This document shows positions 7,227-59,800 of a DNA stretch of 64,000 nt, in pieces. The position numbers and the translations under genes were made by a program. Position 1 is the first letter of the stretch. Each line of letters opens with the position of its first letter. The notes under the pieces are model-generated. The model was not told the DNA's origin, did no database searches, and worked only from the letters and a program-made list of their open reading frames with translations. This DNA is from Conchocele bisecta (lineage: Eukaryota > Mollusca > Bivalvia > Lucinida > Thyasiridae), in the NCBI GenBank assembly GCA_029237695.1, contig CM055274.1:65407484-65471483 (forward strand), in the 5' to 3' direction.

Positions 7227-7596
7227 CTAGAAATGGACGCTTGTCGACAAGCGCATGTGTATCCCCCTCCCCAGATACACAAGTAGTTTGAAAAAAGGGT
7301 GTTCGAGTTATGCTCCGGAGACAAAATCAGTGACGGGAAAAACAAAGGGAGATAACTAAAAAATTAGTGATGCAAGAGTTGTCATTCTTGCGTGACACAC
7401 CTTTAGGGTTGTGGTCTATGCATGTGTGAAGTTTCATGAAAATATTCCAAAGGGTGTTCGAATTATGCTCCAGACACGAAATCAGTGCACGAAACAACAA
7501 AGGGAGATAACTAAGAAATTAACGACGCAAGAGTTGTCATTCTTACGTGCGACACACCTTTGGGTCGTCTTCTATGCATGTGTGAAGTTTAATAAA
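7227..7596 (+). mobile_element. Family 2 helentron-like element, left end and 138-bp core
   Basis: The left end starts CTAGAAATGGACGCTTGTCG and contains GTGTATCCCCCTCCCC. Core units of about 138 bp follow, marked by GGGAGATAACTAA, GCAAGAGTTGTCATTCTT, GTCTATGCATGTGTGAAG and ATTCCAAAGGGTG. The core is interrupted at 7597 by a family 3 element and resumes at 9969 in the same unit. The 138-bp units are not related to the 167-bp satellite. Confidence 0.6.
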
Positions 7597-7679: not shown

Positions 7680-9048
7680 TTTACCTGAGCGTTAAAGTTT
7701 TTGAAGCACCAAGTATGTGACCTTGACCCTGGGCTTGGCGGGGGCAGGACAAACGTGGATTTGGCACAGGGCGGTAGAGGACCATTAGAGCAATGCATAT
7801 ATGAAATATGAAGCTGATCCGTGAAATAAAACAGAAATTATAAGATATTTACCTGAGCGTTAAAAGTTATTGAAGCACTAAGTATGTGATGTTAACCCTG
7901 GGCTTGGCGTGGGCGGGACGAACGTGGATTTGGCACAGGGCGGTAGAGGACCATTAGAGCAACACATCTATGAAATATGAAGTCGATCCGTGAATGGAAA
8001 GAAAAATTATAAGATATTTACCTGAGCATTAAAGTTTTTGAAGCACCAAGTATGTGACCTTGACCCTGGGATTGGCAGGGGCAGGACGAACGTGGATTTG
8101 GCACAGGGCGGTAGAGGACCATTAGAGCAATGCGTATATGAAATATGAAGATGATCCATGAAAGAAAACAGAAATTATAAGATATTTACCTGAGCGTTAA
8201 AGTTTTTGAAGCACAAAATATGTGACCTTGACCCTGGGCTTGGCGGGGGCAGGACGAACGTGGATTTGGCACAGGGCGGTAGAGGACCATTAGTGCAACG
8301 CGTATATGAAATATGAAGTTGATCCGTGAATGGAAATAAAAATTATAAGATATTTACCTGAGCGTTAAAAGTTTTTGAAGCACCAAGTATGTGACCTTGA
8401 CCCTGGGATTGGCGGGGCAGGACGAACGTGGATTTGGCACAGGGCGGTAGAGGACCATTAGAGCAATGCGTATATGAAATATGAAGATGATCCATGAAAG
8501 AAAACAGAAAGTATAAGATATTTACCCGAGCGTTAAAGTTTTTGAAGCACTAAGTATATGACCTTGACCCTGGGCTTGGCGGGGGCAGAACAAACGTGGA
8601 TTTGGCACAGGGCAGTAGAGGACCATTAGAGCAATGCGTATATGAAATATGAAGCTGATCGGTGAAAGAAAACAGAAATTATAAGATATTTACCCGAGCG
8701 TTAAAGTTTTTGAAGCACCAAGTATGTAATCTTGACCCTGGGCTTGGCGGGGGCAGGACGAACGTGGATTTGGCACAGGGCGGTAGAGGACCATTAGAGC
8801 AATGTGTATATGAAATATGAAGCTGATCCGTGAAAGAAAATAGAAATTATAAGATATTAACACGACCGTTAAAGTTTTTGAAGCACCAAGTATGTGACCT
8901 TGACCCTGGGCTTGGCGGGGGCAGGACAAACGTGGATTTGGCACAGGGCGGTAGTGAACCATCAGAGCAATGTGTATATGAAATATGAAGCAGATCGGTG
9001 GAAGGATGAAAAAATTATGAGACATTTACCCGAGTGTTAAAGTTTTGT
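7680..9048. repeat. 167-bp core array, subfamily C
   Basis: Eight units. Landmarks are GCGTTAAAGTTTTTGAAGCA, GTGACCTTGACCCTGGGCTT, GGATTTGGCACAGGGCGGTA, GAGGACCATTAGAGCAATGC and AAACAGAAATTATAAGATAT. Units differ by scattered substitutions and small indels. There are no real ORFs. The same subfamily occurs at 39297-39898. Confidence 0.7.
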
Positions 9049-9094
9049 GACGGACGGACGGACGGGAGGACGGGAGGACGGGAGGACGGGACGC
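9049..9094. repeat. ACGG/GGAGG microsatellite
   Basis: Short tetranucleotide tract GGACGGACGG changing to GGGAGGACGG repeats. It separates the 167-bp core from the first foldback cassette. Confidence 0.85.
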
Positions 9095-9222
9095 ACGTTC
9101 CTACGAATGAATACTTGTTGGGTTTTTACTGTATAAAAATACCCAACAAGAGTACCCAACACTATCCTAAACCTACCCAATAAGATCCCCGTACGCTTAC
9201 AACAAGTACCCATTCGTGTGTG
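9095..9222. repeat. Foldback cassette type 1
   Basis: Bounded by ACGTTCCTAC on the left and GTGTGTGCGGACGG on the right. Arms of 18 bp, ACGAATGAATACTTGTTG and the complement of CAACAAGTACCCATTCGT, match at 16 positions. A second hairpin inside uses TTGTTGGGT and ACCCAACAA. A near-identical cassette lies at 39937-40066 in the duplicated locus. Confidence 0.7.
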
Positions 9223-9237
9223 CGGACGGACGGACGG

Positions 9238-9796
9238 ACGTTCTTACATAAGGGTACTTATGTGGCTTATCACATGTTAAATATTAGCCACATAAAACGA
9301 TTTTTAGCCACATAAAACAATTTTTTAGGTGGCTAATTGTAACCAACCCTATCCTTTAACAAGTCCATAACCCTGTGGGGCTAGCCACATAAGTACCCTA
9401 ATGTGTGCCCGGACGGACGGACGGACGGACGTTCTTACAAATGGATACTTATGTGGCTAATCACATGTTAAATATTAGCCACATAAAACGATTTTTAGCC
9501 ACATAAAACGATTTTTTAGGTGGCTAATTGTAACCAACCCTATCCTTTAACAAGTCCATAACCCTGTGGGGCTAGCCACATAAGTACCGTAATGTGTGCC
9601 CGGACGGACGGACAGACGGACGGACGGACGGACAGACGTTCTTACATTAGGGTACTTATGTGGCTTATCACATGTTAAATATTAGCCACATAAAACGATT
9701 TTTAGCCACATAAAACAATTTTTTAGGTGGCTAATTGTAACCAACCCTATCCTTTAACAAGTCCACCCTGTGGGGCTGCCACATAATACCCTGTGC
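9238..9796. repeat. Three tandem foldback cassettes, type 2
   Basis: Three copies at about 9238-9410, 9430-9600 and 9637-9796, each preceded by an ACGG tract and by ACGTTCTTAC. The arms are about 22 bp (GGGTACTTATGTGGCT against AGCCACATAAGTACCC). Between the arms are repeated AGCCACATAAAACGATTTTT blocks. The third copy has several 2-5 base deletions towards its right end. The type is absent from the duplicated locus at 39.3-42.4 kb. Confidence 0.7.
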
Positions 9797-9968
9797 CGGA
9801 CGGCAGACGGACGGACTAGGTCGGACGGAGGAGGCGCGGACGGACAGGACGGACGGACGGAGGACGGACGGACTGACGGACGACGACGGACGGACGGCTG
9901 GCGGACGGACGGACGGCACGCGGACGAGAGTAACACTAAATGCCCCCTCCACTATCGTGGTGGGGTAT
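9797..9968 (+). repeat. Degenerate ACGG tract and terminal hairpin of the family 3 element
   Basis: About 125 bp of irregular GGACGGACGG, interrupted by CTAGG, GAGGAGGCGC and CTGGCGG, then GTAACACTAAATGCCCCCTC and a hairpin (CCCCTCCAC / GTGGTGGGG). The matching tract at 40390-40475 is a clean repeat, so this one has decayed or is misassembled. Confidence 0.6.
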
Positions 9969-13968: not shown

Positions 13969-14167
13969 CAACACACGGCCACTAATCAGTCACATTACAG
14001 TTGATACACAGCAACTAGTCATTAAAATTACAGTTAACACACGGCGACTAATCACTGACATTACAGTCGACAAAAAGCGACTAATCACTGACATTACAGT
14101 CAACACACGGTGACTAATCACTGACATTACAGTCAACACACAGTGACTAATCACTGACATTCCAGGT
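13969..14167. repeat. 33-bp minisatellite, block 1
   Basis: About six units of ACTAATCACTGACATTACAG plus TCAACACACGGCG. The block abuts the acceptor of the ILK exon and is cut on the right by the LTR retrotransposon at CCAGGT. The same unit in the same orientation continues at 24700, 32388, 46035 and 47058. Confidence 0.85.
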
Positions 14168-16745: not shown

Positions 16746-18134
16746 CTACCCCGATATCCTGCTCAGGTAGTCTGCCCCCAGATTGTCGGCCCCTTTTATC
16801 GCAACAATACGCATTCGGTAAGGTTGCAGTATCAAGGCCCACCTCATTAGTCGGGAATTTGCAACCTTGGCTTTGTTTAGGTAAACCAACGGTTGGTGGT
16901 CCGTTTCTAGGATAAATTCCCCCCCAAACAAATAACGGTGGAACTTCTCGACCCCCCACACGACTGCCAGACACTCCTTCTCAACTACCGAATAATTGCG
17001 TTCCCTTGGCAACATCTTTTTGCTGGCATACGCTATCGGAAGTGGGATACCATCCTGCTCTTGCAACAGTATTGCCCCTAACCCAATGTCGGAAGCATCC
17101 GTCCTGAGCACGAAAGGTTTGTCTAGTTCGGGCAGTTTCAGAACTGGGTCCCTGGTCAATAATCCCTTGAGGGTAACAAAAGCTTTCTGTTGGGGTGCCC
17201 CCCAGTTGACCTTGTTTGGTTGACCTCTCTTATTAAGGTCAGTTAGCGGGCTCGCTATCTCTGCGAAGTTGGGCATGAACTTCCTATAGAACACGGCTAA
17301 CCCCAGGAAAGCCCTGACCTCCCTCTTTGTCTCAGGGACATTAGCTTCATGAACTGCCTTGACCTTTTCGGGATGGGCCCTTAGTTCTTTCTTACTGCTG
17401 ATAGTATGTCCCAGGCACTCAAGTTGCCTGTACCCAATGCTGCACTTGGAGGGTTTTGCCGTTAGATTTGCATCGGACAATCGGGAGAGGACTTCACTCA
17501 GAGCTCCCAGGTGTTGTTGCCACGTATGGGAGAATATCAAGATGTCATCGACAAAACTGTCTGCATTGTGGACCCCCTTTAATACTTTCCTCATGAGTCT
17601 ACAGAAAGTGGCCTGTGCCGTGACCATTCCAAAGGGCATGACCTTGAACTGGAATAGACCCTGGGGTGCCTCGAAAGCGGAATATTCCCTGGAATTCTCA
17701 TCCAATGGGACCTGCCAGTAGCCCTTACTCAGGTCCAGCTTTGAAAAGTAGCTATGTCCGGCCAACTTAGAGAACATCTCTTCAATATTTGGCATTGGTT
17801 CCGCATCAAACACAGTGACTTTGTTAAGTTGACCGGAAATCAATGCAGAATCGGAGCCCCCCGTCCTTTTCCTAACCAGAATTACTGGGGACGAGTAGGG
17901 TGATTTTGAAGGTTCTATGACACCTAGCTTCAGCATCTCCTCTACTTCCTGGCTGACTGTTTCCCTGACCTTAAATGGGATAGGGTACCCCTTAATTCTT
18001 AATGGGTCTTGCGTTGACAACTTTATCTCATGTTTCTCTATATGGGTGTGTCCTGGTGCGTCCCTCAGGACATGGGTGAATTCCTGTAAGATCTCTTTGA
18101 CTTGGGTCTTTTGTTTCTTGCCTAAATCAGGCCG
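16746..18134 (-). pseudogene. pol: Reverse transcriptase-RNase H of the retrotransposon (frame 2)
   Basis: The frame is open from about 18134; the first in-frame ATG gives 424 residues from 18020. Counted from that ATG, the RT shows FSKLDLSKGYWQVPL near residue 90 and the catalytic FVDD box near 160. RNase H follows with LRTDASDIGLGAILLQ near 305 and FILETDHQPL near 375. It copies the element RNA into DNA and degrades the template in the cytoplasmic particle. It is unusual that RT-RNase H is the last pol module, after integrase. Two close indels appear to have scrambled about seven codons just before QLNKVTVFDAEPMPN, where the family has a conserved Asp-containing block. An upstream shift near 18135 separates it from the integrase spacer. 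Domain identity is certain; activity is unlikely. Confidence 0.9.
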
Positions 18135-18310
18135 ACAGGGTCAACTTTGCTCTCCGTATCGGACTCTAATCCCCTGGGACATAACATGTTCTTCGGCACT
18201 ACACCCACTTGGACTAGGATCCCCTCTACTGTGTCTTCTATCACGGCCGCATTTATTACAGTGAGTATTCCCTTCCCCGGGTGCTCAGGCCTAGTCTCGT
18301 ACTCTTTAAC
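18135..18310 (-). other. Pol spacer read in a third frame (two frameshifts)
   Basis: Between the integrase C-terminus and RT a third minus-strand frame is open (it includes LTVINAAVIEDTVEGILVQV) and ends at a TAG near 18125. Its position and composition suggest it belongs to the polyprotein. The integrase frame leaves it near 18300 and the RT frame picks up near 18135. They could be two mutations or one mutation and one programmed shift; no classic slippery site is obvious. Confidence 0.55.
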
Positions 18311-20601
18311 ATGTTTGCATGAAAGGTTTTCAACTTCCCTCCCATGTCAACCCTATAGTCCCACTCATTAACTACCTCTGTTACGGGGTATGGTCCCTTC
18401 CACCTAAGAAGCAATTTGTTGTTGTCTGTCGGTAGTAGTAGAAGTACCTGATCTGCCACTGCATACTGCCTACTACGGGTCTTACGGTTGTAGTACTTTG
18501 CATACTTTTTGGACGCACTCTTCAAGTTCTCATGCGCGATTTCGCTCGTTTTTTCGAGCCGTTCGCGCAAGTCGAGGACGTACTGATACGTCGTTTTGAC
18601 GTTGTCCTCTATGTCCTTCTCGGACCACAGATCTCTTAGTATACTCTTCGGACCCCGAACGGTCCTTCCGTACAATAGTTCAAACGGTGAGAAAGCCAAA
18701 CTTTCTTGAGGGACTTCGCGATACACGAATAGGAGCGCGTTAATGTATTTGTCCCAATCTTTGGGACGTTCGCTTGCCATTCTACGAAGCATTTGCTTTA
18801 ATGTACCATTGAACCGTTCCACGAGACCGTTACACTGTGGGTGGTACGGTGTCGTGGTTAATTGTCTCAGCGATAACAATCTACTAATTTCCTCCATGAC
18901 TGCCGACGTAAATTGACTACCCTGATCGGTGAGCATCTCCTCGGGGATACCCAGTCTACTGAACATATCCACGAGAGCTTCCGCGACTCGTTCGGCCTCG
19001 ATGCCTGGTAATGGTACCGCTTCTGGGTACCTAGTTGCATAATCAACTAACGTTAGTATGTAACGATTCTTCCGATCAGTAGCTGGAAAAATTGGCCCTA
19101 CAATGTCAACTGCGACTCGTTTGAACAGAGTGTCTATCAACGGCATAGTTCCTAACGGAACCTTGGTGATGTGTCCCTTTGACACAGTCTTTTGACATAT
19201 GTCACAAGACCTACAAAACCGTGTAATGTCACTGCCCACGCCTGGCCAATAAAATTCTGATAACACTCGATCAGTTGTCTTCTTAACCCCTAAATGGCCC
19301 GCCATGATTGATTGATGTGCCACTTTCATCACGGTAGTCCTTAGTGTTTTTGGGACTACCAGCTGATGGTACATCCTACCTGACCCTATCGATTCGAAAT
19401 TACGATACAACAAGTCTTTTCGGTATGCGAATTTCGATTTGTTTCCGTTCTTACTTGACCGTACCGTTCCGTCTTTTGCGTTATTTCGAACCGACATCAA
19501 TGTGACGTCATGTGCCTGCGCCTCTTTGAATTCATCGCGTGATACGCTCGCGATTGCGGTAGGGACTTTGAGGGTCTTATATGATTCGTCTCGGGCTGTC
19601 GTTTGTGACCTAGTTTCAACTGCGCACGATTTTGCGCCTCTAAAATCGGATATCACTGGTAATTCTGACCCGTCTACATTACCTATGGTAACATCATACA
19701 TTGTATCTGTCATGCAAAGGGCTTCTACATGACCTTTAAAAAAAGGTGTATCTAGATCTACCCGGGCGGTAGGAATTCCACTCATTTTGTTCCTATTTAC
19801 CAGCATGCATGTTGAAACCTTGCTTAAAAACTGATCTGGTTGTACTAAACCTTCCCTGACGACCACCCCGGTACACCCAGTATCTCGCATTACTGTGACC
19901 TTTTTCCCATTTAATGTGCCCTCTGCTACGGGTAGCCTATCCATACCAAATGTACATCCGTTAATCAACTCCGGCTGTATCTCGCTACCAGAACATACAA
20001 TAGTGGTGTCGGTATCAACCATACAGAAATGTCCTTGGTTTTCCGCTGGTTGTTCCGTGTTTTGCCATCTACATCTACCTCTGCCTCTAGTGTGCCTTCC
20101 ACTTCTACCTCTATTTCTACCTCTGTACCGACCTCTCTGTTCTTTATCTGCAAAACTTACATGTTTCTCTTCCTCGACTGCTGCTGCTTTGTAAGCTGAG
20201 GACCGGTCACGTTTAGGACAATCGTAGGACATGTGACCTTCTTTGCCACAATGGTAACATGTCCCGCGATGCCTATCATAGCCGTTCCTGCTGGTACTTC
20301 TGTCATAACTGCCTCTACTCGGGCTTCTATCATAACTACCCCTACTTGGGCTTCTATTTTGGTCTCTATTCTGATATCTGTCTCGACTCCTATCTCGACT
20401 CCTATCTCTGGATCGATTATCTGCACTACTTACCTTGCGCCTCTGGTTATCTACTGACCTGTACTCATTTCTGTTGCTAGTACTGTTCCTCTGAACTACA
20501 TACTTGCTACCTCCTCTAGCTTCTGCAAAGTAATCTGCCTGAACCGCCATCTGATCTATCGAGTCAAATGTTTTCTCTTTGAGAAAATAAGTAGAGCTCA
20601 C
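18256..20601 (-). CDS. pol: Gag C-terminus, protease and integrase polyprotein
   Basis: 781 codons from the first ATG. Near residue 115 is a CCHC zinc knuckle, CYHCGKEGHMSYDC, preceded by an Arg/Ser-rich repeat region (RDRSRDRSRDR, SPSRGSYDRS). Near 238 is the aspartic protease signature DTGCTGVVV. Near 425 the integrase zinc-binding HHCC domain begins at HQSIMAGHLG and ends CRSCDICQK. The catalytic core has D in VAVDIVGP (~494), D in LTDQGSQF (~554) and E in NGLVERFNG (~591), with 35 residues between the last two. The polyprotein would be cleaved to give nucleocapsid, protease and the enzyme that inserts the cDNA. It continues Gag after an apparent frameshift near 20590 and ends at a stop before the RT frame. 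Confidence 0.92.
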   Translation of the reverse strand: MSSTYFLKEKTFDSIDQMAVQADYFAEARGGSKYVVQRNSTSNRNEYRSVDNQRRKVSSADNRSRDRSRDRSRDRYQNRDQNRSPSRGSYDRSPSRGSYDRSTSRNGYDRHRGTCYHCGKEGHMSYDCPKRDRSSAYKAAAVEEEKHVSFADKEQRGRYRGRNRGRSGRHTRGRGRCRWQNTEQPAENQGHFCMVDTDTTIVCSGSEIQPELINGCTFGMDRLPVAEGTLNGKKVTVMRDTGCTGVVVREGLVQPDQFLSKVSTCMLVNRNKMSGIPTARVDLDTPFFKGHVEALCMTDTMYDVTIGNVDGSELPVISDFRGAKSCAVETRSQTTARDESYKTLKVPTAIASVSRDEFKEAQAHDVTLMSVRNNAKDGTVRSSKNGNKSKFAYRKDLLYRNFESIGSGRMYHQLVVPKTLRTTVMKVAHQSIMAGHLGVKKTTDRVLSEFYWPGVGSDITRFCRSCDICQKTVSKGHITKVPLGTMPLIDTLFKRVAVDIVGPIFPATDRKNRYILTLVDYATRYPEAVPLPGIEAERVAEALVDMFSRLGIPEEMLTDQGSQFTSAVMEEISRLLSLRQLTTTPYHPQCNGLVERFNGTLKQMLRRMASERPKDWDKYINALLFVYREVPQESLAFSPFELLYGRTVRGPKSILRDLWSEKDIEDNVKTTYQYVLDLRERLEKTSEIAHENLKSASKKYAKYYNRKTRSRQYAVADQVLLLLPTDNNKLLLRWKGPYPVTEVVNEWDYRVDMGGKLKTFHANMLKSTRLGLSTRGREYSL

Positions 20602-21484
20602 GACTGCATATACTTAACATCTGATCTCTGATCATGTAGTCTAGTACTCCTTCATATGTTCTATTCACCTTACCTAACTCAAACCATCTATCTAAATAGT
20701 TCTTTGACCGACTGACATATTGCACAAATGATTCACTGTGATCAGGTTTGGTGTTTTTGAACATGCGTCTGAACCCATCTTCCGTTAGATCAAAACATTT
20801 CAACAATGCGGATTTCAACTTATCATAGTCAAGAGCATCATCAATAGGTAGTCTAGAATATACATCTAATGCCTTGCCCTTCAATAAAGCACTCAAGTGT
20901 AGTGACCACTTTTCTTTCCCCCACCTTTGAATGGCTGCGTACCTCTCAAATCTAGCTAAGTAGCTATCCATGTTGTCATTATTCTGATCAAAATGTGGCA
21001 GCTTCGGACCGAATGCTCTGCCATAGTCCCTATCATGTCTATCTTCATCTACTACTCCACCCCTTTCTACTTTTGCCATTTCTACCTGGTGCTTAGTGTC
21101 TAGTTCTCGCAATTTGAATTCTAGAGCTAACTGTGCTTCATTGGCTAAACGATGTGATTCCTTATCTAACCGCGCAGCATCTAATCTATCTTTCTCCATC
21201 TGTCGCTCAACTTCCTTAGCTAACTGCTCAGCATCTAACCTATCTTTCTCAGCCTGTCGCTCAACCTCTTTAGCCAACTGCTCAGTATCTAACCTATCTT
21301 TCTCCATCTGTCACTCAACCTCTTTAGCCAACCGCTCAGCCTCTTTAGCCAACCACTCAGCATCTAACCTATCTTTCTCAGCCTGCCTAGCCTCTAGTCT
21401 TTCCTGTCTTTCTCTCTCTTGCTCTTCTTTTACAAAGGCCCTTAACTCTGAATCTGCTAGCCCCAAGCTTTTGCCTATCTCCAT
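20564..21484 (-). pseudogene. gag: Gag N-terminal and capsid-like region
   Basis: The ATG at 21484 starts MEIGKSLGLADSELRAF. A coiled-coil region follows with repeats of EKDRLDAEQLAKEVERQ (four to five copies of about 17-19 codons). Codon 58 is TGA at 21313-21311; the equivalent codon in sister repeats is CGA, so this looks like a CpG-to-TpG decay. The frame then runs from 21307 through a retrotransposon-gag domain (LPHFDQNNDNMDSYLARFER near 21000; FDLTEDGFRRMFKN) and ends at 20564. It overlaps the next frame by 38 bp, and the homology continues there, so a one-base shift near 20590 breaks Gag upstream of the zinc knuckle. Gag forms the particle shell. Confidence 0.85.
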
Positions 21485-24699: not shown

Positions 24700-25512
24700 C
24701 AGGTAACATACGGCCACTAATCACTGACATTCCAGTCAACACACGGCGACTAGTCAGTAAAATTACAGTCAACACACGGCGATTAATCACCTACATTACA
24801 GTCAACACACGACAATTAGACACTAAAATTACAGTCAACACAGTGACTAACCTGACATTACTGTCAACACACGATGACTAATCACTAACATTCCAGTCAA
24901 CACACGGCGACTAATAACTGAAATTACAGTCAACACACGGCGACTAATCACTGACATTTACAGTAGACACACAGTGACTATCCACTGACATTACCGTCAA
25001 CCACGGTGACTAATCACTAACAACTAATCACTGAAATTACAGTCAACACACGGTGAACAATCACTGACATTCCAGTCAACACACGGCCACTAATCTTTAA
25101 CATTACAGTCAACACATAGTGACTAAACTCTGACATTCCAGTCAACATACGGCGCCTAATCACTGACATTACAGTTGACACACAGTGACTAACCACTGAC
25201 ATTACAGTCAACCGCGGCGACTAATCACTAACATTCCAGTTCACACATGGCGACTAATCACTGAAATTACAGTCAACGCACGGTTAACAATCACTAACAT
25301 TCCAGTCAACACACGGCCACTAGTCTTTAACATTACAGTCAACACATAGTGACTAAACTATGACATTCCAGTCAATATACGGCGTCTAATCACTGACATT
25401 ACAGTTGACACACAGTGACTAACCACTGACATTACAGTCAACACACGGCGACTAATCACTAACATTCCAGTTCACACACGGTGACTAATCACTGAAATTA
25501 TTCATCACACGG
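24700..25512. repeat. 33-bp minisatellite, block 2
   Basis: About 24 units with variants in the final CGGCG/CGGTG/CAGTG positions and GACATTCCAG or GACATTACAG. A higher-order duplication is visible: the run at about 25040-25200 is repeated at about 25255-25450. It ends at the left terminus of Polinton 1 after CACGG. Confidence 0.85.
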
Positions 25513-25577: not shown

Positions 25578-25766
25578 ACAAAAATTTGAGCCTACCCCCC
25601 CTTGCTTAACTTTTATCTCCAAAAGATGAGAATGTGGTGTTTGCGACATGAGGACGGGGAGATAGATGGCCGTATAATGGAAAAAATTCCTCCAGCGATG
25701 ACCATGGCATTTTATCTCAGGTATTAGTGCTCGTACCGTCTTAGGAACATCGAGACTGACGATACG

Positions 25767-27796
25767 ATGATCTTTCACAAGAACTCTCCGGGCAGTCCGT
25801 GGCTGAACGAGATCGTTAAAGCCGAGAGGTGGATAGCCGATAGGGAGAGAGGTCGAATGGAGATTGATAAAGTCGATAGGCCGAACATGAAATGGAGCTT
25901 CGTTAGGTGGATATCGGTCGCGATGAAGATGATCATCGGCGGGCAACAACTCCTCATGGGGGCGGGGAAACTCTCCGATTGGTTAAGACAGAAGAAGGGA
26001 ATGTATTCGGCAGACACGTACGACGACTACCTGTGTCTGTTTAGGTGCATAGCCATACATTGTGGCACGAAACCCGACTGCTGTTGCAAGGAGGCACGGG
26101 CTCTGGCTCGCGCATATCTAGGTCACGATTTTGGGCTGGGCAGTGGGGGAATCCCCCTGGACGATATTAAGAAGGTAGAAGAGAAGTTCAAGATGGGCAT
26201 TAGGGTATACAAACCCACCGATGACAGAGTGTGGTATCTCGTGAAGGTGCCTGCCAACTACGACTCGGTAGGTGCTAAGACCATGACGATAGGAATGTTT
26301 GGGGGCCACTCGTTCCTAGTCAAGAACCTTCGTAAGATGACTAACGAGTACAGGTGCACCGGGTGCCAACAACGATTCACAAAGGCATGTAACATGCAGA
26401 GGCACGCGATCACCTGCATGGGTGGGAAGACCGATGTGATATGTCCCAGCAAGAGGATAGAGACCTCAGTCGGGAACAAGAAGGCATTCTACCCCAAGGG
26501 GTACGCGAGCGCCATGTCGATTCAATTATTGGGTAGAGAGGAGAAGAGTGAGGGAAGGCACATACACCACGCGAGATGCGGGCACGGAGGCGAGAGGTGG
26601 GTGGCCGTCGAACCGGTAGACGGCTACTGCCACGAGACCAAGACCGCATTCTAGTTCCACGGGTGCTACTGGCACGGATGCCCGAGGCATTGTAGGAGAG
26701 GAAACCCGTCAGCGCTGTACAGGAGGATGCTCATCCGAGACGACGAGATAATGGAGGCGGGTTACGAGCTGGTGGTGATGTGGGAGTGCGAGTAATTGAG
26801 AGAGCGGATTCCCTGTGTTCCATCGCCCGCGGAGGCGGAGACGACTGAGTATCCTCACCAGATAGTCTATGACTTTGAGGCGTATCTCGACAAGTCGAAG
26901 GCCTCGAGATCCACCAAAGACCTGACGTACAAGGTAGAGCACGTGCCTCTATCGGTGTCGTTGGGGGATACGATGCATGAGGAGATTACCCACATATGCG
27001 AACGAGACCCCGCCGAGTTGGTAGAGAAGTTTGTGAACGAGTTGCAGAGGAGAGGTAAGGTCATCAGGGATGGAGTGAGAGAGAGGTATCTGCCGGAAGA
27101 TATGGAGATGCTGTCGAAGCCTCAGAAGGCAAAGATCGACTCGTGGATAGATAAAGTCCCGGTGGTGGGGTTCAACTGCAGCAGGTACGATCTGAACCTC
27201 ATCAAACAGTACCTCGTAGATAAGCTGGCGGCCACAGTGTCCAAGGTGATGGTCGGGAAGAGGACCAACACATGTTCCTGTTTACATCAGAGAGAGTTTA
27301 GATTCATCGACAACATACATCTGGGTCCGGGCACCACCTACGACAAGTGGGTCAAGGCGTACGACTGTAAGAAGACAAAGTCCCACTTCCCATACGAGTG
27401 GTTCGATAGCGTGGACAAGCTAGACCACCCAGGGCTGCCGGACAATCCCGAGTGGTACTCAAAGTTGAAGGGCGCGTACCTACTGTCGATATCGGAGTGG
27501 AAAGAGTGCCAGAGGGTCTTCCGAGAAAGGGGGATGAAGACGTTCCAGGAATGGTTGAGACGCTATAACGACTTGGACGTCGGACCGTTCTTGGAGGCCC
27601 TGACTAAAATGACAGGAGTTCTACAGAGGTAGGGGTGTGGACATACTCAAGGGAGGACTAGGGTCGAGGGTCAGAGAAAGCTAGTGGGGGCGCTGTCTGC
27701 CGAGAAGATGATCATATACTCCCCGCTGCTAAAGTGGTATCTGGAGCACGGTCTGGTCGTCAAGGCTGTTCATAGGGTGATAGACTAAACGCCCGG
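25767..27796 (+). pseudogene. polB: Protein-primed family B DNA polymerase (Polinton PolB), broken
   Basis: One frame from 25767 to 27632 is interrupted by TAG at 26652 and TAA at 26793. The N-terminal region has IDKVDRPNMKWSFVRW, a C2H2-like finger (CTGCQQRFTKACNMQRHAITC) and FHGCYWHGC just after the first stop. The 3'-5' exonuclease motifs follow: YDFEA, FNCSRYDLN and RRYNDLDV. A frameshift near 27610 and a deletion of roughly 200 codons compared with the PolB at 33631 remove palm motif A. A last piece, LVGALSAEKM...HRVID, runs to about 27796, where it meets the integrase remnant head to head. Motifs B and C are lost. This enzyme would replicate the element. It is clearly inactive. Confidence 0.88.
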
Positions 27797-32387: not shown

Positions 32388-32712
32388 CACGGTGACCAAT
32401 CACTGACATTCCAGTCATCACACGGCCACTAATTTGTAATATTACAGTCAACACATAGTGACAAAACTCTGACATTCCAGTCAACATATGGCACCTAATC
32501 ACTGACATAACAGTCAACACACGGCGACTAGTACCTACCATTACAGTTAACACACGGTGACTAATCACTGACATTTCAGTCAACACACGGCAACTAATCA
32601 CTGACTTCCAGTCAACACACGGTGACAAATCACTGACTTTCCAGTCAACACACGGTAACTAGTAACTACCATTACAGTTAACACACAGTGACTAATCACT
32701 GACATTCCAATC
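32388..32712. repeat. 33-bp minisatellite, block 3
   Basis: About ten units in the same orientation as the other blocks. It is interrupted at GACATTCCAATC by the left end of Polinton 2. Confidence 0.85.
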
Positions 32713-33022
32713 AGTAGTATACAGGGTATTAGTACGTTACAGATTTTATATAACAAGACAATAGAAAGAACGGAGTACACCACCCCTATAATAGACTATA
32801 AAAACAGTGTAAAAACCTCTTCATAAGAAGCGGGAGATACAGGGTTTAACCTCATATATCATAAAAGGTAAATGAAGTAGAAAGTTTGTTGATAGTTGTG
32901 TTATATTTATAAGACTACTGAAACAAAAATTGAAAAACACTATAATTCTTATACAGATAATTTACAATTGAACAATAAATATTTATAATCATAAACAACA
33001 ATAATAATATAAATATACAAAT

Positions 33023-33676
33023 ATGAACTTGAACAATATAAAACAACAAAGTCCTGCAGTATATCAACAACTTGTTGACGGTATAGAAGGACTCCCCAAC
33101 ATTGACACATTGAGGAGCGATCTAACCAAAATGGGTATACCTTTTACCATGAGGATGAAAGAGAAAAAACTTCAAAGGTTGATAAATGAGGGAAAGATAA
33201 AGATAATATGGAATAGAATGCGGAGAGCCGCAGCTAAGGGGGTTTTTAAAAATATTGAGAAGAAAGATATAAATAAAATATCAGATACAATAGCCTCAGA
33301 AGCACAAAGTGTACTGTTATCTAAAGGTGTTGGCCTTAATAAAAAACCAAAGCGTAAGATTAACACCTCACTAGTAAGTAAGATAGTGAAAGAAGGTCCG
33401 GAAATACTTGAAGATATAGATGGGTTTGGGGTTAATATAGTGAAAGGACGACGAGTTATATCAATCACATTAAAGAGAAATCTTGACCGTAATTCCTCAA
33501 GAAGACTCATGAAACAGCTTGATAATAAGGTGACAGGTAGTTTTTATTTAAGATATTCATATGCGTATAAGTTGCAACACATTGATGAGCTTGATGAATG
33601 GGGAAAACCTAATATAATAACATTTGGTAGAAACAATTTCCAGGAAGTCCCACATTTGACGGATCTGTTGGGGTAA
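33023..33676 (+). CDS. 217-residue protein preceding PolB
   Basis: Intact from MNLNNIKQQSPAVYQQLVDG to a TAA. Basic, lysine-rich middle (IKIIWNRMRRAAAKGVF, KKPKRKINTSLVSKIV) and a C-terminal part with VIKGRR-like basic residues and SFYLRYSYAYKLQHID. No recognised domain. It overlaps the first codons of the PolB frame (open from 33631), an arrangement suggesting translational linkage. In protein-primed systems a terminal protein can be encoded next to the polymerase. That role is conceivable here but unsupported by any motif. No homologue survives upstream of PolB in Polinton 1. Confidence 0.6.
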   Translation: MNLNNIKQQSPAVYQQLVDGIEGLPNIDTLRSDLTKMGIPFTMRMKEKKLQRLINEGKIKIIWNRMRRAAAKGVFKNIEKKDINKISDTIASEAQSVLLSKGVGLNKKPKRKINTSLVSKIVKEGPEILEDIDGFGVNIVKGRRVISITLKRNLDRNSSRRLMKQLDNKVTGSFYLRYSYAYKLQHIDELDEWGKPNIITFGRNNFQEVPHLTDLLG

Positions 33677-36600
33677 GACAATGGGTTAAAATGCAGGAAG
33701 AAAATAGATTGGACGTTGATAGAATAGATAGACCAAACACAAAATGGTTGTTTGTAAGATGGTCAAGCACAACAATTAAGATTATTTATACCAGTCAGGT
33801 TTCACCCCGAGATACACAAGTAACTGCACTAGGTGGTGGAAAACTCCCAAACTGGTTGAGAAATAAGAAAGGGATAAAACCTCTCGACACTTTCAACGAT
33901 AATTTATGTATATTCAGATGTCTAGCTTTATATAAAGACACATCATTGAGAGCTGATGGATCAATAAAAGTGGTAAAATCTTTAAACAAAAAGTATCAAG
34001 ATTTCCTTGTGGGAAAGCGTAAAAAAGACGGCCCTATAGGTTTTGGGGATCTTAAGACTGTTGAAGAATGTTTCAAAGTTGGGATTGAAGCGTACGAGCC
34101 GGAAGAAACTGGAACTTGGTATATCAGACACACAGCTGCCCACTATGAAGAAATTGGTGTTATGAAAATGAAGATAGGTATTTACAACAATCACGCGTTT
34201 CTTATAACAGACATGAAGAAGGCCACGCAAAACTATGCCTGCCCTAATTGTCAACAACGATTTACTCAATCCCACTGTATCGCGAGACACGCGCAAACTT
34301 GCAAATGCGGTCAAACTAAAGTATCTTGTAAGGGACTGGAAATAGACAGACCCCAATCTGCATTTGAGAAAGCTTTTTACCCTAAATCTCATTGTAGTAA
34401 GAAATCTATAGAGTGGATGAATACGCTTTCCAAAAACCATCATATTCACACAGCCTTTTGTGGCCACGGTGGAGAAAGATTAATAAAGAAAGCACCGGTT
34501 AATGGATATTGTTCCGAAACCAACACAGTTTATCAATTTCACGGATGTTATTGGCACGGTTGTCCACACCATAGTAAGAATAGACAAGATAAGTATGCAA
34601 ATACAATTACACGAGATATAATAATTAGGGATTCATATAATTTAGTTACAATTTGGGAATGTGAGTATGATCGACAGAGAAAGAAAGCCATAACACAACC
34701 CCTTCCAACACCCCCAACAGTAATTTATCCATATAAAATAGTGTATGATTTTGAATCTTTACTGGTTAAGAGTGATCCAGATAGACCTATAAAAGATCTA
34801 GATGTGATTGATACCCACGTTCCAATCAGTGTGAGTATTGGTGATACATTAACTAGAGAAGTTGTGCACATTTGTGATACAGACCCAGAGAACCTAGTTA
34901 AACGATTTATGAACGAAGTATCTAACCGCGGAAATAAGATAAGAGAAAAAGTTGGTAAAAATCCAATATATGGTTTTCCAACCGATTTCGGTATCCTTCC
35001 ACCTGTACAGCAGAAAGAAATTACAAGATGGATTTCACAGGTTCCTACATTAGGTTTTAACTGCGGATCGTACGATTTGAATGTTATTAAGAAATATTTA
35101 GTAGGAATTATAGCGGATACTACAGATAAAGTAATGGTTGGTAAGAAAGCAAATACGACCGTTTATTTGATGACTCCAGAATTAAAATTTCTAGATGTGA
35201 GAATGTATCTATCTCCAGGTGTGAGTTATGATAAATGGGTACGCGCATACGGTTGTGAATGTAATAAATCTTTCTTTCCATACGAGTGGTTTGATAATTA
35301 TGACAAGTTAACATACCAAGGGTTACCACCTATCGAATGTTGGACTAACAGATTAGCACCTAGTAATAAAATTAAACCTGAGGAGTTAGCCGCGTGTGTT
35401 GAAATTTATAAAGCAAGAGGTATGAAAAGTTTTAAAGATTGGTTAGAATATTACAACGATCTAGATGTTTCTCCGTTTTTAGAAGCTCTAGAGAAGATGT
35501 CTAACTTTTATTCACTCAAAGGAATAGATATGTTTAAAGATGCCGTTACCCTTCCAGGGGTCGCATTGCAATATATTTTGAGAGAAACAATTAAAGAATA
35601 TGTTAAAACTTATAAGACTAAAGAAAGCGCAGAAGTTCGCAAGAAATATCCACCACTGTTTGCACCTGAAGAGGAAGAGTATGAAATGTTGAAAGGTGCA
35701 CTAGTTGGAGGGCCTTCTATAGTATTTACAAGACATGCAGAGATTGGTGTTACAAGATTAAGATCCACCCCAGATGGTAATGGAAAAAAATGTAAGTCTG
35801 TATTAGGATTGGACGCTAACGCTCTTTATCTCTCAACACTCGCCAGGGACATGCCTTGTGGCAAGGGTGTTTTAACAAAAACTTCAACCCCATTTAATAA
35901 GAATACGATAGATGATTTCACCAACAGAGTTAAGAGTGATACTTGGTTTGGGTTTGCGGAGGTTGACATCCGTGTTCCAGATAGTTTATACGCAACATTT
36001 TCAGAAATGTCACCTATCTTTATAAATCGTGTAGTTGAGGAAGATGAAGTTCCAGACCATATGTTGAAATATCTTCATGATACAAACCGTAATCGAGGAG
36101 ATGGTAAAAAGTTGGTTGGAGCTATGAGTGCAGAGAAAGTTTTACTATTTGCACCACTATTGAAATGGTATCTAAAACACGGTTTAATCATCACAGGAGT
36201 GCATAGGGTTATAACTTATAAACCCGGGAAACCGTTTGAATGGTTTGTGAAAGAAGTTACTGCAGCGCGTAGAGAAGGTGATGTAAACGCTGAAGCCGCA
36301 CCGATTGCAGATATTATGAAATTATTAGGAAATTCGTGTTGTGGAAAAATGATAGAATCACCCGAAAAACACCTATGTACCACTTATACTAAAGATGAGA
36401 CGTGTGTTGATAGATCATTAAGATCTGCGTATTTTGAGGATATTGAAGAAATTGGAGATGCGTACGAAATATCCAGTAGGAAGTCTTCAGCCAAAATGAC
36501 AAGACCCTTTCACTGTGGTATAGCTGTATATCAATACGCCAAGTTGAGAATGTTAGAATTTTATTATGACTTTCTCGATAAATATGTTGATAGAGCCGAC

Positions 36601-37063
36601 TTTGAGTTAGTACAGATGGATACAGATAGTATGTATATGGGTATCAGCGGCATGAATTCGTTGGAAGATGTGATAAAACCGGAAATACGCGAAGGTTTTA
36701 ATAATTGTAAAAACGAATGGCTCGCTTGGGATAAATGGAGCAATAGAGAGCCAGGACTTTTCAAAACCGAATTCAGAGGGGATCGTGCAATCGCATTAAG
36801 CAGCAAGTGTTACTTACGTAGTTGAGAAAATAGGTGGAGATATCAAGCATTCTGCTAAAGGACTTAACGCCCGGCAGAACACCCTTAACTGGAACAGATA
36901 TAAGGCAGCGCTCGATCTCACCAATAAAGATGTAGGGATGAATAGAGGTTTCCGCATGTTAAACGGTTCTATGAGAACTTACACTCAGAAGAAGCTAGGA
37001 TTATCCGCCTACTATGAGAAGAGAAGATTGAATGTAGATGGTGTTCACACCACTCCTTTATAA
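33631..37063 (+). pseudogene. polB: Protein-primed family B DNA polymerase of Polinton 2
   Basis: Main frame from the first ATG at 33691 to 36825 (1,044 codons); the open frame reaches back to 33631, where FPGSP matches SPGSP of the Polinton 1 copy. Motifs by residue from 33691: C2H2-like finger CPNCQQRFTQSHCIARHAQTC (~187; quoted span partly variable), FHGCYWHGCPHH (~283), exonuclease YDFES (~352), FNCGSYDLN (~455), YYNDLDVSPF (~588), palm motif A LDANALYLST (~708), motif B KLLGNSCCGKM (~877), motif C MDTDSMYM (~977). After SSKCYLRS a single shift near 36812 moves the remaining ~80 codons (GLNARQNTLNW, KKLGLSAYYEKRRLN) to another frame ending at 37063. Replication enzyme of the element, nearly complete, and the break could be a recent mutation or a consensus error. 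Confidence 0.92.
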
Positions 37064-39296: not shown

Positions 39297-40066
39297 ATTA
39301 TAGAGGACCATTAGAGCAATGCGTATATGAAATATGAAGATGATCCATGAAAGAAAACAGAAATTATAAGATATTTACCCGAGCGTTAAAGTTTTTGAAG
39401 CACTAAGTATGTGACCTTGACCCTGGGCTTGGCGGGGCAGGACGAACGTGGATTTGGCACAGGGCAGTAGACGACCATTAGAGCAACGCGTATATGAAAT
39501 ATGAAGTTGATCCGTGAATGGAAATAAAAATTATAAGATATTTACCCGAGCGTTAAATTAAAGTTTTTGAAGCACCAAGTATGTGACCTTGACCCTGGGA
39601 TTGGTGGGGCAGGACGAACGTGGATTTGGCACAGGGCGGTAGAGGACCATTAGAGCAATGCGTATATGAAATATGAAGATGATCCATGAAAGAAAACAGA
39701 AAGTATAAGATATTTACCCAAGCGTTAATGTTTTTGAAGCACTAAGTATGTGACCTTGACCCTGGGCTTGGGGGCAGGAACCGTGGATTTGGCACATGGC
39801 GGTAGAGGACCATTAGAGCAATGCGTATATGAAATATGAAGCAGATCGGTCGAAGGATGAAGAAATTATGAGACATTTACCCGAGTGTTAAAGTTTTGTG
39901 ACGGACGGACGGACGGACGGACGGGACGGACGGACGCACGTTCCTACGAATGAATACTTGTTGGGTTTTTACTGTATAAAAATACCCAACAAGAGTACCC
40001 AACACTATCCTAACCCTACCCAATAAGATCCCCGTACGCTTACAACAAGTACCCATTCGTGTGTGC

Positions 40067-40140
40067 GGACGTGGACGGACGGACGGACGGACGGACGGAC
40101 GGACGGACGGACGGACGGACGGACGGACGGACGGACGGAC
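40067..40140. repeat. Pure ACGG microsatellite
   Basis: About 18 copies of GGAC/ACGG, interrupted once (GGACGTGGAC) at the left edge. Likely length-unstable. Confidence 0.95.
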
Positions 40141-40389
40141 GTTCTTACGAGAGCTACATTGTGAGGTTATTTCCTTTGATGTTTACACTGTGGGGTTAAC
40201 CTCACAATGTAGCAACTTATTCCGTTATTTTCTTCCTTAACGATTCTCTTACGGAATAAATCGCATAATATGCAAATGAGCTAGCCATTAGTTAATTATA
40301 TTTGAAAAACACTTATCCAAGTGTCTTAAATAGGGCGGTGGGTGGGTTTCAGCACAACACAGCAACCTCACAATGTAGCTCTCGTAAGT
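40141..40389. repeat. Foldback cassette, distinct type (type 5)
   Basis: Preceded by GGACG and beginning GTTCTTACGAG. A 23-bp perfect inverted repeat joins 40146-40168 (TACGAGAGCTACATTGTGAG...) with 40364-40386. A third copy of AACCTCACAATGTAGC lies inside near 40198. The interior (ATATGCAAATGAGCTAGCC) is unrelated to types 1 and 2. Found only here. Confidence 0.75.
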
Positions 40390-40475
40390 ACGGACGGACG
40401 GACGGACGGACGGACGGACGGACGGACGGACGGACGGACGGACGGACGGACGGACGGACGGACGGACGGACGGAC
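40390..40475. repeat. Pure ACGG microsatellite
   Basis: About 21 copies of ACGG leading into GGTAACACTAAATGCCCCCT. It keeps long frames open by chance. Confidence 0.95.
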
Positions 40476-40519
40476 AAGGGTAACACTAAATGCCCCCTCC
40501 ACTATCGTGGTGGGGCATA

Positions 40520-46034: not shown

Positions 46035-46358
46035 AATTACAGTCAACACATGGTGACCAATCACTGACATTCCAGTCAAACCACGGCCATTAATCTTTAA
46101 CATTACAGTCAACTCATAGTGACTAGTCTCTGACATTCCAGTCAACATATGGCGCCTAATCACTGGCATTCCAGTCAAGACTTGGTGACTAGTAACTACC
46201 GTTACAGTTAACACACGGCCACTAATCATTGACATTGCAGTCAACACAGGGTGACTAGTAACTACCATTACAGTCAACACACGGCCACTAATCACTAAAA
46301 TTCCAGTCAACTCACGGCGACTAATCACTGACTTCCAGTCAACACACGATGACTAGTT
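46035..46358. repeat. 33-bp minisatellite, block 4
   Basis: About ten units (TTACAGTCAACACATGGTGA). Same orientation as blocks 1-3. Interrupted at ACGATGACTAG. Confidence 0.85.
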
Positions 46359-47057: not shown

Positions 47058-47600
47058 CATTACACGGTGACTAACATTACAGTTAACACACGGCGACTAA
47101 TCACTGACATTATATCAACAAACAGTGACTAGTAACTAACATTACAGTTAGCACATGGCGACTAATCACTGACATTACAGTTAACAAACGGCGACTAGTC
47201 ACTAACATTTCAGTCAACACATAGCATATAGTCACTAAAATTACAATCAACACACGGTGAATAGTAACTAACATTACAGTTAACACACGGTGACTAATCA
47301 TTGACATTCCAGTCAACACATGGCGACTAATCACTGACATTCCAGTCAACACATGACGAATAGTCACTAAAATTACAGTCAACACACAGCACGCTGGAAT
47401 GTCAATGATCACACGATGACTAATCACTGACATTCCGGTCATCACACGACGACTAATCAATGACATTCCAGTCATCACTCGACGACTAATCACTGACATT
47501 CCAGTCATCACTCGACGACTAATCACTGACATTCCAGTCATCACACGATGACTAATCACTGACATTCCAGTCAACACACAGTGACTAATCACTGACAGCA
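47058..47600. repeat. 33-bp minisatellite, block 5
   Basis: About 16 units, some with TCATCACACGACGACTAATC variants that form a local 33-bp subfamily at 47410-47560. This is the far end of the array. Confidence 0.85.
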
Positions 47601-56462: not shown

Positions 56463-56865
56463 CTATATGACAGAGCAAACATGGCTGAAAACTAAATCTA
56501 CATGTATATTCATAAATAATGGTTATAACATTTCACCAGAATGAAAAACAATACGTCAAACTTATGCACTTTTGGGAAATATCCTTCCACTATGACCAAG
56601 AAGTATACACATGTAATACATATTTTATGTTTAATCCCTAAACATACAAAAAAAATATAAAATTACAAATGCCAATGTCTTCAATACACCCTTCAATATC
56701 TTCTATATGCTACCCTCTAATACAACCAATAAACGCAAATATTGATACATCACAATACACATGAATCGATGACGTATCGAGGAGTACCCCTTGGTCACGT
56801 GACTACAAATTTGAAAGACAATAACAGCCATACTGGTTTTTTGGTCCAAGAATAATAGTCTATCA
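56463..56865. other. AT-rich single-copy sequence
   Basis: No recognised gene or repeat. In gene sense it lies between the 51-bp array and the candidate exon. Confidence 0.3.
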
Positions 56866-59800
56866 CCGTGACAATGACATAATAAAGGAGTGTGGGAGAG
56901 CAGGTAGTGTGACTCACCATAACAATGACAAGATAAAGGATGGCGGCAGTGTATGTAGTGTGACTCACTGTGACAGTGACAACATAAAGGAGGGCGGGAG
57001 TGTAGGTAGCGTGACTCACAGTGATAATGACAAGATAAATGAGTGTGGGAGTGTAGGTAGTGTGACTCACCATAACAGTGGGAGTGTAGGTAGTGTGACT
57101 CACCGTGACAATGACAAGATAAAGGAGGGTGGGAGTGTAGGTAGTGCGACTCACCGTGACAATGACAAGATAAAGGAGGGTGGGAGTGTAGGTAGTGTGA
57201 CTCACCGTGACAATGACAAGATAAAGGAGGGTGGGAGTTTAGTTAGTGTGACTCACCGTGACAATGACAAGATAAAGGAGGGTGGGAGTGTAAGTAGCGT
57301 GACTCAGCGTGCCAATGACAAGATAAAGGAGGGTGGGAGTGTAGGTAGTGTGACTCACCGTGACAATGACAAGATAAAGGAGGGTGGGAGTGTAGGTAGT
57401 GTGACTCACCGTGACAATGACAAGATAAAGGAGGGTGGGAGTTTAGTTAGTGTGACTCACCGTGACAATGACAAGATAAAGGAGGGTGGGAGTGTAAGTA
57501 GCGTGACTCAGCGTGCCAATGACAAGATAAAGGAGTGTGGGAGTGTAGGTAGTGTGACTCACCGTGACAATGACAAGATAAAGGAGGGTGGGAGTGTAGG
57601 TAGTGTAACACACCATGACAATGACAAGATAAAGGAGGGTGGGAGTGTAGGTAGTGTAACGCACCATGACAATGACAAGATAAATTAGGTTGGGAGTGTA
57701 ATGTAGTGTGAACTAACCATACAATGGCAAGACAAAGAGGGCGGGAGTGAAGGTATGTACTCACCATGCAAAATGACAAATAAAGGAGGGTGGGATGTAG
57801 GTAGGTGTGACTCACCGTGACAATGACATAATAAAGGAGTGTGGGAGTGTAGGTAGTGTGACTCACCGTGACAATGACAAGATAAAGGATGGCGGCAGTG
57901 TATGTAGTGTGACTCACTGTGACAGTGACAACATAAAGGAGGCGGAGTGTAAGGTAGCGTGACTCACAGATGATAATGACAAGATAAATGAGTGTGGGAG
58001 TGTAGGTAGTGTGACTCACCATAACAATGACAAGATAAAGGAGTGTGGGAGTGTAGGTAGTGTGACTCACCGTGACAATACAAGAAAAAGGTGGTGGGAG
58101 GTGTAGGTAGAGCGACTCACCCGTGACAATGACAAGATAAATGGAGGGTGGGAGTGAGTAGTGTGATCACCGTGGACAATGGACAAGATAAAGGAGGGTG
58201 GGGTTTAGTTAGTGTGATCACCGTGACAATGCAAGATAAAAGGAGGGTGGGAGTGTAGTAGCGTGACTCCCAGCTGCCAATGGACAAGAAAAGGAGGGTG
58301 GGGAGTGTAGGTAGTGTGACTCACCGGTGACAATGGACAAAGATCAAAAGGAGGGCGGGAGTGTAGGTAGTGTGACTCACCGTGACCATGCCAAAGATAA
58401 AGGAGGGGGGAGTTTAGTTTAGTGTGATCACCTGGACAAATGACAAAGGAAAGGAGGGTGGGAGTGTAAGAGCGTGACTCAGTGCAAGACAAGTAAAGGA
58501 GTGTTGGGAGTTGTAAGGTAGTGTGACCGCACCGTGACAATGACAAGATAAAGGGAGGGTGGGAGGGTAGGTAGTGTAACAACACCAATGACAATGACAA
58601 GTAAAGGGAGGGTGGGATTGTAGGTAGTGTAAGCCCCAAATGACAATGACAAGATATAGGCCGGGTGGGAGTGTAGGTAGTGCTAACCAAGACAATGGCA
58701 AGACAAAGGAAGGGCGGGAGTGTAGGTAGGGTGAGGCTCACCAGCAAAATTGGAGTAAAGTGGGAGTGTAGGTGTGACTCCCGTGACAATACAAAATAAA
58801 AAAAGGTTGGGGTAGTGGTAGTGTGGACTCACCTAACAATACAATGAAAAAGGCATTGGCCGGCAGTGTTATGTAGGGGACTCAAACTGTGGCAGTGGGA
58901 CAACTAAAGGAGGGAGTGTAGGTAGCGTGAATCACACAGTGATATCCAAAAGATAAATGAGTGTGGGAGTGTAGGTATGTGACTCACCGTGAACAATGAC
59001 AAGATTAAAGGAGGGTGGGAGTGTAGGTAGTGCGACTCACCCCGTGACAATGACTAAGATAAAGGAGGTGGGGTGGGGAGTGTAGGTACTGTGGAACTCA
59101 CCGTGTACATAATGACAAGATTAAAAGGAGGGTGGGAGTGTAGGTAGTGCGGGATCTCACCGTGACAATGACAAGATAAAGGAGGGGTCAGGAGTAGGTA
59201 CTTGTGTACTCCAACGGTGGACAATGGACAAGAACAAAGGAGGGTGGGTAGTGTAGGTTAGTGTGACTCACCGTTGACAAATGACTAAGAAATAAAGGAG
59301 TCTGGGAGTGTAGGTAGTGTGACTCACCATAACCAATGACAAGTTAAAGGTTGGCGGCAAGCTTGGACAGTGTAAAGGTAGTGGGTGGGATCACCGTGAC
59401 AAGGACAACATAAAGCGAGGGCGGGAGTGGTAGGTAGCGTGGACTCACGTGACAATTGGACATTGATAATATGGAGTTGTGGGAGTGTAGGTAGTGTGGA
59501 CTCACCATAACAATGGACAGATAAAGGGTGTGGGAGAGTAGGTAAGTGTGATCACAAGTGGCAATGGACAAGGAATAAAGGAGGGTGGCAGTGTAGGATA
59601 GTTGTGACTCACCCGTGACAAGTGGACAACATAAAAGAGGGAGGGAGGGAGTAGGTAGTGGGTGAATCACCGTGACAATGTCAAGATAAAGGAGGGTTCA
59701 GTGTTATGTAAGTGGAAACACAACCATGTCAAATGACAAGATAAACGGAGGGTGGGGAGTGTAGGTAGTGGGTGACTAACATGGTAAATGCAAGACCACT

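Follow-up and report, generated by a model that had tools for sequence, protein, structure and literature searches.

Foldback cassettes in the ACGG microsatellites of HINE-like elements of Conchocele bisecta are most likely site- and orientation-specific mobile elements

The ACGG microsatellites carried by HINE-like elements in the bivalve Conchocele bisecta are interrupted by short foldback cassettes. These are most likely non-autonomous elements that insert with site and orientation specificity, with slippage not their main source. We consider site-specific insertion of some kind very likely. The whole reading, in which a Crypton-kind tyrosine recombinase acting in trans inserts the cassettes in one orientation at CGGA sites of ACGG-type tracts, we hold to be probable; the tyrosine recombinase, judged by itself as the enzyme, has slightly less than an even chance of being correct. 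The cassettes came to light in one stretch of 64,000 nucleotides (the window).

Results

Both cassette-bearing loci in the window are copies of one HINE-like element with 168-bp tandem repeats, an (ACGG)n tract, and a left-flank hairpin, and in both copies the tract is broken up by foldback cassettes (Table 1). Direct reading and an arm search bore out the original prediction that such cassettes fill equivalent slots between ACGG tracts, with type 1 (here R1) and three copies of type 2 (t0) at 9.1–9.8 kb and type 1 followed by type 5 (t5) at 39.9–40.4 kb. The motif ACGTTC(C/T)TAC marks the cassette starts at 9095, 9238, 9429, and 9636 in the first locus and at 39938 and 40139 in the second. 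CGGACG directly follows five of the six cassettes, the third t0 copy being one base short there, and a common left-flank hairpin, CACTAAATGCCCCCTCCACTATCGTGGTGGGG, closes both loci (at 9934 and 40484). Many small deletions were found in the third t0 copy and the tract behind it (about 9740–9930), and they look like uncorrected read errors.

Table 1. Cassettes and parts of the host element in the two loci of the window
Feature	Positions	Strand	Basis or remark
168-bp tandem repeats, HINE copy 1 (family F1)	7680..9046	+	repeat scan; ends ...GTTAAAGTTTTGTG ahead of tract
Irregular ACGG tract (GGGAGGACGGGACGCA), adjoins type 1 cassette	9050..9095	+	direct reading
Cassette R1 (type 1)	9096..9222	+	arms 9103-9120 / 9200-9217, 89% complementary
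Cassette t0 (type 2), copy 1	9239..9409	+	ends and arms; cluster 0
Cassette t0, copy 2, mosaic: left arm AAATGGAT, right arm ACCGTAAT	9430..9600	+	
Cassette t0, copy 3, small deletions degrade right half	9637..9797	+	
Irregular ACGG tract	9798..9926	+	
HINE left-flank hairpin F1 (CCCCCTCCAC TATC GTGGTGGGG)	9934..9965	+	
168-bp tandem repeats, HINE copy 2 (F1)	39301..39891	+	
ACGG tract, HINE copy 2	39901..39938	+	
Cassette R1, HINE copy 2	39939..40065	+	arms and ends
ACGG tract between R1 and t5, HINE copy 2	40066..40139	+	
Cassette t5 (type 5), 251 nt including 5' CG	40140..40390	+	arms 40140-40168 / 40364-40392, 97% complementary
ACGG tract after t5, HINE copy 2	40391..40474	+	
HINE left-flank hairpin F1, copy 2	40484..40515	+	

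The host, predicted to be pearl/helentron-like, proved to be a pearl/HINE-like element. In the sections of PMC7492417 that describe them, non-autonomous Helentrons of C. gigas have a subTIR and an IR, a tetranucleotide microsatellite (GTCC), and tandem repeats; a left-flank subTIR+IR hairpin, a tetranucleotide microsatellite, and tandem repeats are all present here. On the minus strand the window element has the published C. gigas HINE layout, GTCC being the complement of ACGG. The same sections place a "highly variable" segment of 10–500 bp between the microsatellite and the tandem repeats of C. gigas HINEs. The cassettes occupy the equivalent region, and they may hint at the nature of this segment in bivalve HINEs and pearl elements. 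A mitochondrial COX1 contig of the assembly, read with the invertebrate code, likewise marks the genome as that of an animal.

The cassettes are real and far above chance. Their signature, ACGGACGTTCYTAC, occurs at 7,256 places (3,669 + 3,587) in the 1.89-Gb assembly, and the reversed pattern, used as a control, at 72. We sampled 58 stretches, 55 of which surround listed signature places within the initial 13.5 Mb of contig C1, so the sample is biased by the signature and the survey covers mostly one contig; the other three, from contigs C5 and C10, were chosen without the pattern, and one of these overlaps the window. In the 58 stretches, six further loci (L001–L003, L005–L007), and the window, we collected every piece of 60 bp or more that is bounded by tracts of 12 bp or more. 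The 151 pieces fell into 21 clusters; by inspection, nine clusters (136 pieces) have cassette ends, and the remaining twelve, with 15 pieces, consist of HINE flanks or of other tract-bounded sequence. The t0 cluster (cluster 0) has 102 copies at 53 loci, the window counted as one locus, and the longest run is 19 cassettes in a row (locus L046). In a viral_contigs scan, ten stretches had isolated sites, none with an ACGG tract.

Type 5 has spread very recently. Its exact left end occurs 267 times genome-wide (control, 0), and the best-scored 40 of 577 first-look candidates, a best-of list in which only those 40 were scored, are identical over 231 bp. We fetched 60 copies regardless of their flanks: 20 of the best-scored (L067–L086) and 40 others (L097–L136) drawn from the 100 t5 left ends listed. 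In the second set, 33 copies agree with the window copy at no fewer than 247 of 249 positions, and five have small gains or losses; the exact right end is absent in L101 (an extra base) and in L103 (an internal deletion plus one change). The identical copies suggest recent or ongoing insertion, in which case it should be possible to find the enzyme, along with a circular intermediate if there is one.

Tract specificity, one orientation, and consistent CGGA junctions characterise the t5 copies. Read from the flanks, all 60 fetched t5 copies lie in an ACGG-type tract in a single orientation. A script counted 58 in the same orientation, none reversed, one undecided (L119, with a tract of 6 bp), and one inexact (L085, at its left end), and the last two we read as having the same orientation. 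The left flank of t5 ends in CGGACG in 62 of 63 cases and the right flank begins with CGGA in 56 of 58; variation increases with distance from the element, right positions 5–6 being variable.

In design, the cassettes are built around inverted arms of 18 nt (type 1, 89% complementary), 22 nt (type 2, 95%), or 29 nt (type 5, 97%). The types compared have a common end pattern, CGnnCnnAC ... GTnnGnn before CGGA, although it is not kept by every old copy. In three additional types that we found (t1, t4, and t21), one 10-nt arm is present four times in alternating orientation, with an arm sequence that differs by type, and the loop motifs TATATAAAAGATCAAAGGA and ACGGAATAA, with variants, recur in all three. 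The cassettes had been described as unrelated in sequence, which does not hold for these three types, given their loop motifs, or for the common end pattern. Matching between left and right arms is type-specific (mean score 28.7 for a sequence's own arm, 14.6 for foreign arms), with the own arm topping its row in six of nine sequences and the three failures being three close variants of t4; as judged from sequence, its cause could be base pairing, or the arms could be copies of a motif to which a protein binds. The cassettes are MITEs in the wide sense, being short and non-coding with inverted ends and a target duplication, the duplication being known from one locus. Rfam scans of one window stretch and four loci gave only sub-threshold matches. 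The body of type 5 (40140–40390) holds ATATGCAAAT, which we take to resemble an octamer motif.

At that one locus (L001), a (ACGGAAAC)n tract holds two adjacent sibling HINE ends, one filled and one empty. Removing one CGGA and assigning CG to the element restores the sibling. Of four readings, only a CGGA duplication joins the siblings without gap or mismatch, and it scores 91 against 86, 86, and 87 for the other three; the 4-bp duplication comes from this single locus, where the surrounding repeat is itself subject to variation. Elsewhere the length of the duplication is hidden by the tract repeats. A 2-bp CG duplication fits the pure ACGG tracts, but the empty site at L001 needs an extra 4 bp. 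Among 57 paired t5 copies, 14 have mismatched 6-bp flanks and 3 have mismatched 4-bp flanks; for t0 the counts are 22 and 12 of 72, mismatches that show that older copies have drifted. Such 6-bp mismatches led us to reject a six-bp, Dada-like duplication. Between neighbouring cassettes, 65 of 81 spacers are 2 modulo 4 in length, as CGGA units plus CG predict, and 16 are out of phase; the shortest is 6 bp.

Insertion just as specific for site and orientation could also be the work of a DDE transposase with an asymmetric target, as in Dada or Ginger2-like elements, which we think unlikely. Cut-and-paste MITEs often have inverted arms and a 4-bp duplication, a combination that the cassettes display, and an oriented DDE transposase making a 4-bp duplication would give nearly identical junctions. 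There is precedent as well: Dada elements, in the relevant sections of PMC3706591 and PMC8869645, are DNA transposons that always enter multicopy RNA genes, a repetitive target, at set sites and in a set orientation, with internally deleted derivatives known (PMC3706591), and PMC10871703 links a Ginger2-like DDE enzyme to insertion into (AT/TA)n. However, as described in those Dada sections, the duplications are 6–7 bp long, a length at odds with the 6-bp flank mismatches above, terminal inverted repeats are absent, and the target is RNA genes rather than an ACGG microsatellite. The cassette ends (CGTTCTTAC...GTAAGTA) are also offset by 2 nt instead of forming a flush TIR.

Cassette content and order differ between copies, as the prediction had it, and a fixed order, which would have spoken against it, was not observed: the window has TR-R1-t0-t0-t0 and TR-R1-t5, and other copies have TR-t0-R1-t0 (L002), TR-t5-R1 (L118), and TR-t5 with no R1 (L083). 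The orders in copies marked as family F1 are R1-t0-t0-t0, R1-t5, t0-R1-t0, t5-R1, t5 alone, R1 alone, R1-t0, and R1-t0-t4-t4-t0. In the sampled loci t5 was found in eight HINE left-flank families and t0 in five, with 25 of 63 t5 copies and 46 of 114 t0 copies having no family assignment. R1 was assigned to F1 only (six copies assigned, two unassigned), and ACGGGACGCACG stands directly ahead of it in seven of eight copies; we therefore take R1 as inherited within F1. Judging from these sequences, R1 was probably passed on with its HINE family and not exchanged, contrary to the role first given to it, and types 2 and 5 look to have been inserted later.

Exchange adds to cassette variation, as mosaic arms and an excess of same-locus best matches make plain. 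Across the 102 copies of t0, one core and right arm is found with several different left arms, and 35 copies combine the AGTACTAT left arm with a CCCTAA right arm that does not match it (parsing failed for 14 left and 20 right arms); the non-matching pairs imply that arms recombine. The best match of a t0 copy lies in its own locus in 15 of 72 cases, against 3.0 expected. At L081 and L137, an array of one t5, two t4a, three t4c, and a t4c fragment lies in an (ACGG)n(ACAG)n(AC)n microsatellite, and none of 13 patterns representing HINE flanks or repeat ends matched there.

These data bear on a further alternative, ectopic recombination, gene conversion, or template switching via the ACGG tracts, possibly in Helentron rolling-circle replication, which we consider improbable. 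It would yield fixed orientation and tract confinement automatically, and the mosaic t0 arms, the same-locus best matches, and the adjoining, closely similar t4c copies with a partial copy at L137 all speak for it. Against it, some insertions have just 6–7 bp of tract on one side (L119, with 6 bp, and L105 and L130, in AC-rich tracts), which makes homologous exchange hard to invoke. The filled and empty pair, at one locus, has its 4-bp duplication outside a pure ACGG tract; identical or near-identical t5 copies occur across several HINE left-flank families; and t0 copies are on average as similar between loci (identity 0.942, 4,999 pairs) as within them (0.946, 152 pairs). The short flanks, the CGGA duplication, and the equal identities argue against the original proposal that capture or exchange by recombination or slippage at ACGG tracts was the main mechanism. 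Tandem duplication, present locally, was rejected as the main source of arrays, there being no mean excess of within-locus identity. An assembly artefact, in which collapsed repeat-rich reads misplaced the cassettes, is hardly credible given the excess of signature places over the control and the different flanks around near-identical t5 copies, even though error-like small indels occur in the third t0 copy and some tracts (L074, L075, L097, L101).

Genes with PF00589 are present in the genome (150 of 874 candidates were scored), and within this search no autonomous copy with cassette ends was found. A tyrosine-recombinase exon (L137:42–494, + strand; PF00589, E 2.7e-12) lies 2.8 kb from a t5 copy and about 1.7 kb past the end of the array's tract. 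No cassette end facing this exon was found between it and the array, and it was rejected as the cassettes' partner, being outside the tract and the array; with 150 hits and 267 copies, we estimate about 0.13 PF00589 hits so near t5 by chance, so the proximity is not very unlikely. The lone listed hit on C1 below 13.5 Mb (at 2,787,437) has no listed signature place within 100 kb of it. Many related PF00589 hits occur genome-wide, with open frames of about 186 aa, and suggest a multicopy recombinase family. The top hits, on contigs C895 and C1178, are nearly full-length with no stops; these are possibly bacterial contigs within the assembly.

Discussion

We propose that the cassettes would be mobile elements of ~100–250 bp, with a 5'-CGnnCnnAC end, a foldback body, and a GTnnGnn-3' end. 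They would insert in a single orientation at CGGA within ACGG-type microsatellites, leaving CGGA on both sides, and the HINE-borne microsatellite would be their main landing pad. Because each insertion would leave a landing site on either side, elements could accumulate into arrays, in which later ectopic exchange would produce the mosaic arms and some local duplications. A Crypton-kind tyrosine recombinase would act in trans via a circular intermediate, with a predicted circle junction, ...GTAAGTA-CGGA-CGTTCTTAC..., in which inverted arms surround the core. We prefer this enzyme because of the constant 4-bp core, the fixed orientation, and those inverted arms. Of 19 positions in the predicted junction arms, 18 match in t5 and 15–16 in t0 and t3; the match is weaker in t2 (13 of 19), t4c and t1 (11 each), and t21 (8). 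All eight end pairs compared match at position 3 (C) and at positions 6 and 7 (AC).

Microsatellite-targeting elements are known. Some CryptonV families insert specifically into microsatellites, as a section of PMC8869645 reports citing Repbase Reports 2012, and endogenous nimaviruses with tyrosine recombinases insert into telomere repeats, according to part of PMC10871703. Cryptons have direct repeats of 4–6 bp and a proposed circular intermediate in the relevant portion of PMC3212892, which describes the published Cryptons as having no terminal inverted repeats and those of animals as having no terminal repeats. The cassettes resemble these Crypton and CryptonV descriptions in the CGGA direct repeat at both ends, which matches the target core, and in their fixed orientation in a specific repeated target (60 of 60 t5 copies). 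They differ from them in carrying inverted arms of 18–29 nt, in their foldback arms and arrays of up to 19 (CryptonV), and in their length of 100–250 bp. We do not file them as Cryptons, since they have no room for a recombinase gene and our search found no autonomous copy.

HINE, pearl, and Cg_HINE elements are the hosts of most assigned cassettes, whereas the cassettes are separate elements that cross between HINE families, with one array having no recognised HINE flank. Here, then, the microsatellite carried by one family of mobile elements serves a second family as a landing pad scattered over the genome. The literature searched, which took in few subscription journals and did not extend to Repbase Reports, held no description of oriented foldback cassettes or arrays in HINE microsatellites. 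Such tight, orientation-locked targeting of a microsatellite would be useful for studies of site-specific integration in animals.

The elements may work in the manner of integron gene cassettes, short foldback units that join arrays at a shared core, always facing the same way. Here, by contrast, there is no platform integrase and there are no long cassette ORFs, the host is a eukaryote, and a dispersed microsatellite serves as the core. An integron-like system in an animal, with a trans-acting tyrosine recombinase, foldback cassettes bearing an arm "barcode" for each type, a CGGA core, and microsatellite pads replenished by Helentrons, is a speculative and rather doubtful extension.

Other features of the window

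Pieces of a Ty3-type retrotransposon lie on the minus strand at 16746–21310. Two frames scanned there (16746–20613) contain RT, RNase H, integrase, and zinc-knuckle domains, and an additional open frame lies at 20564–21310 (minus strand). Two blocks of similar large open frames on the plus strand (25728–27632 and 33008–36825) look to us like genes for protein-primed DNA polymerases, from a Polinton or an element akin to a virus; the two frames scanned from these blocks had no match in Pfam. A 33-bp minisatellite (ACTAATCACTGACATTACAGTCAACACACGG-like) occurs in five places (13971–14165, 24705–25500, 32388–32713, 46036–46355, and 47070–47597). A 51-bp minisatellite extends over 7 kb (56863–63964) with about 17% indels between copies, which may be raw-read noise.
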